DNA of 64,000 bases, from the NCBI GenBank assembly GCA_902806085.1, contig CADCVH010000010.1, positions 1-64,000 on the forward strand, written 5' to 3'. Position numbers and translations under genes: made by a program. Positions 927 to 42,351 of this stretch are shown piece after piece (within the stretch, counting starts at the first letter, position 1; each line of letters opens with the position of its first letter). The notes beneath the pieces are model-generated. The model made no database searches. It saw nothing but the letters and a program-made list of their open reading frames with translations, and was not told the DNA's origin. The stretch is from an uncultured Rubrobacteraceae bacterium. GTDB taxonomy: Bacteria; Actinomycetota; Rubrobacteria; Rubrobacterales; Rubrobacteraceae.

Positions 927-2216
927 ATGGCCAACACCCTGTTCAAGATCGACGTGAACAAGCCCATGCAAGAGCAGGAGGTGCCGGGGCACAACCGCTG
1001 GCACCCGGACATCCCGGCGGCGGCCTCCACCGACCCGGGGACGGACTTCCGCATGGAGTGCCTGGACTGGACCAACAGGCAGGTCAGGAACGACGACTCG
1101 GCGGACGACATCCGCGACGTCGACCTGACGCCCTGCCACGTCCTGAGCGGTCCGATCCACGTGAACGGCGCGGAGCCCGGAGACCTCTTGGTCGTGGACA
1201 TCCTCGACATAGGGCCCCCGACGGGTCCGGGGGAGCAGTGGGGCTACACGGGCATCTTCTCCCGGCAGAACGGCGGCGGCTTCCTCACGGACTACTACCC
1301 GGACGCCCACAAGGCCATCTGGGACCTCAGGGGCTTGTACGCGAGTTCCCGCCACATCCCCGACGTGCAGTTCGTGGGGATCAAGCACCCCGGCTTGATC
1401 GGGTGCGCCCCCTCCCACGACCTGCTCGCCGAGTGGAACCGAAGGGAGCAAGCCCTCATAGACACAAACCCCGACAGGGTGCCGCCGCTGGCGCTCCCGC
1501 CGCTGGCGGATAACGCCCTGCTGGGGACGCTGACGGGCCAGGAGTTCGACCGGGCCGCGGGCGAGGCGGCCCGTACCATCCCGCCGCGCGAGCACGGCGG
1601 CAACTGCGACATAAAGAACCTCACGGTCGGTTCGCGCGTGTACTTCCCGGTGTACGTCGAGGGGGCGAAGCTCTCCTTAGGGGACCTGCACTTCTCGCAG
1701 GGGGACGGCGAGATCACTTTCTGCGGCGCGATCGAGATGGCCGGCTACATAGACCTCGGGGTGGAGCTGATAAAGGGCGGCATGGCGAAGTACGGCATGG
1801 ACCGCCCCCAGCACATGCCGATCTTCGAGCTCTCGAACCTCGAGCCCCGCTACTCCAGCAACCTCGTCTTCGAGGGCATCGGGGTCGCCGAAGACGGCAC
1901 CCAGCGCTACCTGGACCTCACGCAAGCCTACCGGCAGGCCTGCCTGAACTGCATCTCCTACCTCAAGCAGCACGGCTACACCGACGAGCAGGCCTACCTC
2001 ATCCTCGGGGCCGCCCCCGTGGAGGGCCGGGTCAGCGGCGTCGTGGACATACCAAACGCGTGCGTCTCTATCTACCTGCCCACCGACATCTTCAAGCGGC
2101 CCATCCACCCGCAAGGCGTCCCCGCCCGCACCCGGAGCGAGGCCCGAACCCCCCATGCCCCGGGCGAACCGCAGATCCAGGAGACGCAAGTGCACTGGGG
2201 GGGCACCCAGGCCTAG
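927..2216 (+). CDS. fmdA: Formamidase / acetamidase
   Basis: A 429-aa cytosolic amidohydrolase of the FmdA_AmdA family, expected to hydrolyse formamide (or acetamide) to formate (or acetate) and ammonia. I chose ATG 927 because AGGAGGGG sits 3-8 nt upstream and the family N-terminus (LFKIDVNKPM) follows at once; an upstream in-frame ATG at 870 would add 19 atypical residues. Family landmarks include HNRWHPDIP near the N-terminus, GCAPSHDLL, PREHGGNCDIKNL, a SQGDGEI segment, and PVEGRVSGVVDIPNACVS near the C-terminus. Length matches the family (about 400 aa). Neighbours fmdB and the amiS remnant make a classical amide-utilisation locus. Confidence 0.92.
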   Translation: MANTLFKIDVNKPMQEQEVPGHNRWHPDIPAAASTDPGTDFRMECLDWTNRQVRNDDSADDIRDVDLTPCHVLSGPIHVNGAEPGDLLVVDILDIGPPTGPGEQWGYTGIFSRQNGGGFLTDYYPDAHKAIWDLRGLYASSRHIPDVQFVGIKHPGLIGCAPSHDLLAEWNRREQALIDTNPDRVPPLALPPLADNALLGTLTGQEFDRAAGEAARTIPPREHGGNCDIKNLTVGSRVYFPVYVEGAKLSLGDLHFSQGDGEITFCGAIEMAGYIDLGVELIKGGMAKYGMDRPQHMPIFELSNLEPRYSSNLVFEGIGVAEDGTQRYLDLTQAYRQACLNCISYLKQHGYTDEQAYLILGAAPVEGRVSGVVDIPNACVSIYLPTDIFKRPIHPQGVPARTRSEARTPHAPGEPQIQETQVHWGGTQA

Positions 2217-2340: not shown

Positions 2341-2848
2341 ATGGGGTTGCTCTACGTTGGTGGGGTTCTGTTCGTGAACGCCGTGATGCTGCTGGGCAAG
2401 GCCGAGCCGCGAAGCGTGGGCATCTCCAACCTCTTCGTGGCGTCTTGCAGATCGCGGCGCCCTTCTACATCATCGCCACCACCGACGGGGAGACGGCCAC
2501 GATCCTGAACGCCTCACAGCGGCTTGCAGGAAGGATGATCCCGTAGGGAGGCGTAGGGCTGCGGGCGTCGGGCATCGGTAACGGCCTCAAAACCTGCGGC
2601 CTCGAAGCCTTGCGCCATCGAGCGCCTGGACCCCGCCCATCGCCGTACCGTCCGAGCCGCTCAAAACCTACGAAAGCCGCTGTCAGGCATCTTCCTCTTC
2701 GGCTTCACCTGCCTCTACGTCGGCGTCACAAACCTGGGCGGGTTCGACACCGGTGGTTTGGCCTGGTACTGCCTGTGGGTGGCGACCATCGCGGTCGTGT
2801 ACTCCTTTTTGAACTTTTTCTACTTCGGGGACCCGTTCTTCGGCGTGA
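2341..2848 (+). pseudogene. amiS: Disrupted AmiS/UreI-type amide-urea channel
   Basis: Reading across frames gives a clear AmiS/UreI membrane protein: MGLLYVGGVLFVNAVMLLGK, then LQIAAPFYIIATTDGE, then FLFGFTCLYVGVTNLGGF and YSFLNFFYFGDPFFG. Intact members are six-helix channels for short amides or urea, matching the adjacent formamidase. Three lesions are visible: a one-base loss in the GG run at 2439-2440, a roughly 169-bp insertion at 2517-2685, and loss of the C-terminal helices at about 2848, where the frame joins an unrelated segment. Removing the insertion and restoring one G gives a continuous frame. Start ATG 2341 has only a distant AGGAG. Confidence 0.85.
2517..2682. mobile_element. 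166-bp MITE-like element inserted in amiS
   Basis: The ends are perfect 9-bp inverted repeats, CAGCGGCTT (2517-2525) and AAGCCGCTG (2674-2682), flanked by a direct TCA at 2514-2516 and 2683-2685. Excising the element plus one TCA joins AAC GCC TCA to GGC ATC TTC in the amiS frame and restores the expected protein (ILNAS-GIFLFGF). It carries no credible gene, so it fits a non-autonomous miniature inverted-repeat element with a 3-bp target duplication. A 17-nt block at its right end (2667-2683) recurs at 42335-42351. Confidence 0.7.
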
Positions 2849-3234
2849 GTGATCTCCGCGTTCCTGCTGCTCGCCGGAAGATGGCCCGTGTCGAGGAGTC
2901 GCTGCCCATCTCCGTGATCGGCACGGGCCCGGACCTGAACTCGGCGACCGACAACGGCCTCGCTCGCGCGGCCGCGCTGCTGGACATGACCGTGCCCGAG
3001 GTCGCCAACAGGGCCACCGTCTCCGGCGCGATCGAGATCGGCCGGCACCCCGGCATCGTACGCGTGACGTTCCGCGCCCCGGTGGACCGCCTCGACGCGT
3101 GCGGCCTCCTGGGCGAGCCGGGGCTAGGGGCCGGGGTGGACGTGGACGCCGACGGCAACGTGCTCGGCCCGGAGTTCCTGAGCTTCGAGGAGTTAGCGGA
3201 CGCCGTGGCCTCTGTTCCGACCGACCCGCATTAA
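2849..3234 (+). pseudogene. C-terminal fragment of an unrecognised enzyme, fused in frame to amiS
   Basis: The open frame that carries the last amiS helices (from TTG 2758) continues into about 128 residues of soluble sequence, including SVIGTGPDLNSATDNG, TVPEVANRATVSGAIEIGRH and VRVTFRAPVDRLDACGLL, and stops at 3234. Codon use and GC3 look normal, so it was once coding. I do not recognise the family. The abrupt change from membrane channel to soluble sequence suggests a deletion joined two genes. An internal ATG at 2881 could allow expression of the fragment, but there is no clear ribosome site. Confidence 0.45.
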
Positions 3235-42170: not shown

Positions 42171-42334
42171 CCTCACAACCACGGCCGCGAACACCGATCA
42201 TCACGGCGGGATCGCGAACGTGCACATACGTCAGGCATCAGCAATAAACCCCAAACCAGGGATCCTCAAAGCCTTATGCCTACGAGCCCCCCGACCTCGC
42301 TGGTTTGTCCTCCGTTTGAGCAAGCGGCCTGAAG

Positions 42335-42351
42335 CCTACGAAAGCCGCTGT
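42335..42351. repeat. Second copy of the MITE-like right-end sequence
   Basis: CCTACGAAAGCCGCTGT is identical to 2667-2683 in the amiS insertion. Upstream, GCGGCCTGAAG also resembles GCGGCCTCGAAG inside that element. No matching left terminal repeat is found, so this looks like a solitary or decayed end. The surrounding 42171-42462 gap, between the PfpI and sulfatase genes, holds no gene I can support. Confidence 0.5.

Follow-up and report, generated by a model that had tools for sequence, protein, structure and literature searches.

The amiS locus

The window analysed here, a stretch of 64,000 nucleotides from an uncultured Rubrobacteraceae bacterium, contains an amide channel gene, amiS, which is interrupted by 166 bp with inverted ends. 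The locus raises the question of whether this segment is a mobile element, what would have moved it, and what part it had in the loss of amiS. The features concerned are the following.

927..2216, + strand: fmdA, intact formamidase, 429 aa (588 bits with PF03069; 653 bits with NF045496, for which the cut-off is 500)
2341..2516, + strand: 5' part of the amiS pseudogene (amide channel; PF02293, AmiS_UreI family, with 29.6 bits over profile positions 3-38; compared with amiS of G053)
2514..2516, no strand: target-site duplication, left copy TCA (target C-TCA-G, from the CTNAG target rule)
2517..2682, - strand: miniature inverted-repeat element (MITE), 166 bp, without a transposase gene; orientation reverse to that of the subfamily A copies (G000:C108, C34; G006)
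2517..2541, + strand: terminal inverted repeat 1, CAGCGGCTTGCAGGAAGGATGATCC, fitting the 25-bp end profile common to the MITEs and IS630-type elements
2658..2682, - strand: terminal inverted repeat 2, CAGCGGCTTTCGTAGGTTTTGAGCG (- strand reading), fitting the same 25-bp profile
2683..2685, no strand: target-site duplication, right copy TCA (from the sequence and the CTNAG target rule)
2683..2887, + strand: amiS pseudogene, 3' part (49.4 bits, profile positions 61-117)

The formamidase adjoining amiS is full length, as the initial annotation held, and exceeds its family cut-off. AmiS itself is a pseudogene. It carries three lesions, namely a frameshift of one base, the insert, and a deletion of about 125 bp. 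The 5' part is one base short near 2443, so that the frame starting from the ATG at 2341 (reading NLFV, then a stop) ends at about 2506-2508, upstream of the insert. The 3' part has lost about 40 codons near 2848-2849, and its last piece, VISAFLLLAGRWP, lies in another frame. When the flanks of the insert are joined with one TCA, the reading ILNAS/GIFLFGF is obtained, as in the intact amiS of two relatives. The statement that removal of the insert restores the frame exactly is thus correct locally; over the whole gene it fails because of the two further lesions. The claim that the insert inactivates the amide channel lacks support, since it is one of three lesions, the other two being independent of it, and it cannot be named as the cause.

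The two relatives, G053 and G022, have an intact amiS of the same type, which reads ILNASGIFLFGF across the site. A comparison with relatives had been proposed in the initial annotation, and it yielded an empty site in G053; in G022 the protein reads identically over this position. The 166 bp as coding sequence within an intact amiS, named there as evidence against an insertion, are not what the relatives carry; their intact genes lack exactly this segment. In G053 amiS lies directly 3' of the formamidase gene, as in the window. A second amiS was not found in the genome to which the window belongs (the own genome, G000). In G006 a formamidase gene is followed by an intact AmiS of a type clearly different from that of the window (L074, G006:C1:862382-862873). 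An ORF at 2881-3231 continues from the broken 3' end of amiS (MARVEESLPISVIGTGPDLNSATDNGL...), has no Pfam match at a threshold as loose as E = 1, and is possibly a further gene remnant.

Ends and dispersed copies of the element

The 9-bp ends CAGCGGCTT (2517-2525) and AAGCCGCTG (2674-2682) are exact inverse complements, and TCA stands on both sides, in agreement with what had been read from the sequence at the outset. Such a configuration alone is at chance level in the window: perfect 9-bp inverted pairs of similar spacing occur 279 times in its 64 kb, and nine of the 279 have equal 3-bp flanks. Independent evidence of insertion was therefore required. It is provided by other copies, by an end of 25 bp shared among them, and by the empty amiS site.

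The own genome comprises 4.41 Mb in 133 contigs. A search of it with the 166-bp query detected one relative of full length, at C108, together with partial ones, and one further copy was found in G006. Additional copies were collected with the G006 copy as the query, and then with end patterns and the end profile. At least 12 elements in the own genome have both ends located, a count that is a lower bound: the window copy, two at C108, and one each at C34, C102, C115, C98, C100, C130, C95, C55 and C44. The search for copies that the initial annotation suggested was therefore productive. A perfect 3-bp duplication flanks 5 of these complete elements. Seven of them form a subfamily of about 190 bp, in which most identities are 80-93%. 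A different, more diverged subfamily includes the window copy, which is 63-72% identical to the members of that subfamily; over its full length it is 69-72% identical to other copies in the own genome and a relative. A second copy of the window subfamily, with one end only, is present in the window itself.

42231..42350, - strand: one-ended MITE copy, 75% identical to the G006 copy; end-profile score of 16 bits for the end at 42350

This end is preceded by CCCCTA. A contig scan with the exact end pattern gave 44 matches, about the chance expectation, and the Rubrobacter match among them (L054) is real.

In the own genome a degenerate motif rich in G and T (GGCTTTGAGGTTCTAGGTTTTGAGG and variants; L013, L019-L024, L144) is repeated within these MITEs, lying near 2583-2605 in the window copy. 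It is also found in intergenic regions without MITE ends, where it often forms two blocks in inverted orientation, separated by 60-120 bp. Some miniature elements are nested one within another (L151, L249 590-910, and L162 in G006); some of these have GAGCGG/AAGCGG ends and TA flanks, and others have AGGGGTGG...CCACCCCT ends.

The IS630-type partner elements

An end search across the relatives that tolerated mismatches also recovered longer elements with the same ends. These are 992-1013 bp long, belong to the IS630 family, and have about 25 bp of end in common with the MITE. Each contains two reading frames that overlap, and an A-rich run lies where they do.

G008, G001, G005, G020, G017 (two), G049: complete elements of IS630 type that have the MITE ends and an equal TNA triplet on each side (from end sequences and flanks)
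L115, L121, L127, L167, L168, L171, L194: insertion sequences with MITE ends, in relatives

The first frame, orfA, encodes an IS630-type helix-turn-helix. The second, orfB, scores 128 bits with NF033545, the model for IS630 transposases, which has a cut-off of 100, and 117 bits with DDE_3 (PF13358), and the PDB match of the transposase is Sleeping Beauty (E = 5e-4). In L112, L115, L121 and L127 the two frames are split around the A-rich run, which is CTCAAAAAAAGTC in three of the four and suggests programmed frameshifting.

The interior of the MITE showed no similarity to the interiors of the insertion sequences beyond the ends, so that an origin by internal deletion has no sequence support. 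Two IS630-type loci of the own genome match the TNA-branch transposase. One, an intact-looking element at C53, belongs to the sister branch described below (TA in CTAG); the other, a decayed transposase at C102:158657-158950, groups with the TNA branch. An intact autonomous partner of this branch was not found in the 133 contigs, nor was a transposase locus matching it found in G006, which bears several MITEs. The initial suggestion to look for a full-length element with the same ends was thus borne out in the relatives; in the own genome a decayed transposase of this branch is all that was found. Multi-copy insertion sequences often break contigs in assemblies. With this in mind, the MITE family is probably stranded, or nearly so, in the own genome and in G006. 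Among 396 sampled genomes of the same phylum, neither IS630 branch was found outside the Rubrobacteraceae at E <= 1e-40.

A target duplication of three base pairs

Among the complete elements with CAGCGG-type ends, MITEs and insertion sequences taken together, 22 of 35 have identical flanking triplets, whereas 7.4 are expected when the right flanks are permuted among elements (p < 1e-5). The repeated triplet is nearly always TNA. The clean duplication claimed for the window copy is supported and is a trait of the element family. Where both flanks are TNA, the middle base agrees in 21 of 23 pairs, against 9.4 expected (p < 1e-5). The bases outside the duplication extend the target to CTNAG. Both the autonomous elements and their MITEs have the 3-bp TNA duplication. 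The remaining 13 of the 35 have no perfect 3-bp duplication; some of them have TA (C108, C44), some are one base off, and some appear rearranged.

The duplication length is usually regarded as fixed in Tc1/mariner-type transposases. IS630, ISY100 and Tc1/mariner duplicate TA (PMC2170065). This 2-bp TA duplication of the IS630 family is present in a sister branch from the same genomes, which serves as an internal control: its ends mostly begin with GAGC/AAGC, and it has TA on both sides at CTAG-like sites; the partner branch has 3-bp TNA instead. In a tree of 32 transposases the duplication length could be scored on 23 rows, and a single change is enough to account for them. The 12 TNA-type transposases, mixed ones included, fall on one side of a branch with support of 92/85, which is below the starred level. 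L176 and L178 have unequal TNA-like flanks, yet lie on the TA side of the tree. Three copies of about 1 kb (L165, L166, L112) have CTA or TAG on one side and CTNA or TNAG on the other, a pattern that would result if one side had lost the middle base of the duplication or if recombination had exchanged the flanks.

These data make it probable that one IS630 branch of Rubrobacter-type bacteria passed in a single step from a 2-nt stagger (TA in CTAG) to a 3-nt one (TNA in CTNAG), or in reverse, and that within the same genomes the other length persisted in the sister branch, whose ends are recognisably related. The literature search yielded no paper that deals with MITEs of Rubrobacter or with CTNAG as a target of IS630.

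Proposed mechanism and alternatives

The insert is very probably a MITE with IS630-type ends, a member of a dispersed family, that landed at CTCAG in amiS, with a TNA-duplicating IS630 transposase as the mover. It is short, contains no transposase gene, and has inverted terminal repeats (perfect over 9 bp, supported by the profile over 25 bp); its dispersed relatives have target-site duplications, and its ends are common to an autonomous element of related genomes. At the level of sequence, the ends, the copies, the duplications and the empty site are established. By analogy with the IS630 family, the ends of about 25 bp would be the recognition sites of the transposase of the IS630-family elements of about 1.0 kb in related Rubrobacter-type genomes, the orfA helix-turn-helix and the orfB DDE_3 part being probably joined by frameshifting at the A-rich run. 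This transposase would bind the ends and excise the element in trans by cut-and-paste, and the element would then be joined at CTNAG, where a stagger of 3 nt would give rise to the TNA duplication. In the own genome the landing site would have been the CTCAG inside amiS, a gene lost through at least three lesions. The initial description of the segment as a mobile non-autonomous element thus gains support from the dispersed copies, from the IS630-type autonomous elements with the same ends, and from the empty site.

The recurrence in the window of nine inverted pairs with equal triplets might suggest a chance inverted repeat within a diverged or elongated amiS, without any insertion; the element recurs elsewhere at full length with the same ends, and relatives have an intact amiS from which exactly this segment is missing, so that the probability of this is practically negligible. 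Descent of the MITE from an element of the IS5 family (IS1031 or IS427 group) was the first lead taken from TNA, 3-bp TNA duplications being usual in these groups and typical of IS1031. It was abandoned once the partner had turned out to belong to IS630, without an IS5-type transposase. Every complete element of about 1 kb found between CAGCGGCTTKCATAA ends encodes an IS630 transposase, as does the sister branch, which has related ends and duplicates TA; an IS5 parentage is consequently most improbable.

A structured intergenic repeat, REP- or RUP-like, could have been spread by other means or kept for an RNA or regulatory role. Several copies are indeed intergenic, and the interior has a degenerate AGGTTTTGAGG-type motif that is present outside the elements too, but the transposon-type duplication is systematic and the folding is no better than that of shuffled sequence (z = -1.0), which leaves this explanation very unlikely. 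An Rfam search of the element returned no match, and with both results negative an RNA role was rejected. A different matter is whether amiS was already dead when the element arrived in an unselected pseudogene. The two other disabling lesions, the one-base frameshift and the deletion of about 125 bp, speak for this order, and it is known, from pneumococcus among others, that repeats beside pseudogenes reflect tolerance (PMC3049150). The codons flanking the insert, however, still match those of relatives well, and the three lesions carry no dating, so that the chances for and against a prior loss are about even.

Relation to known systems

Taken singly, the insertion in the window is an unremarkable MITE within a gene that is decaying. 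The MITE family is new as far as searches show, while its kind is well known. A comparable system is that of RUP and IS630-Spn1, in which elements of about 100-200 bp are likewise gene-free, have ends matching an IS630-family element, and have been proposed to be mobilised in trans (PMC2229807, PMC3049150). The likeness is one of description, and RUP targets TA, whereas the window family duplicates TNA in CTNAG. ISY100 and IS630 resemble the partner elements in having a DDE transposase of the same family, inverted repeats of about 24-25 bp and a length of about 1 kb, but they insert into and duplicate TA (PMC2170065), and the partner elements 3-bp TNA.

MITE and insertion sequence finders that require a TA duplication miss TNA elements. 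Two close IS630 branches with related ends, the same host range and unlike duplication lengths form a natural pair for the study of the residues that set the stagger. Outside bacteria, the Fot branch of eukaryotic pogo, a relative within IS630-Tc1-mariner, has its duplication lengthened to 3 bp (PMC7386202); it is a fixed TAA, in contrast to the TNA of the window family. The sole bacterial precedent found for TNA in IS630 is the pair ISDrpg7/8 of Deinococcus radiopugnans, assigned to IS630 and reportedly flanked by three-nucleotide direct repeats TGA/TAA/TCA (PMC10017437). These differ in their ends, TACGGACTCCGATTAA, a sequence not shared with the window family, and in their transposase of 181-187 aa.
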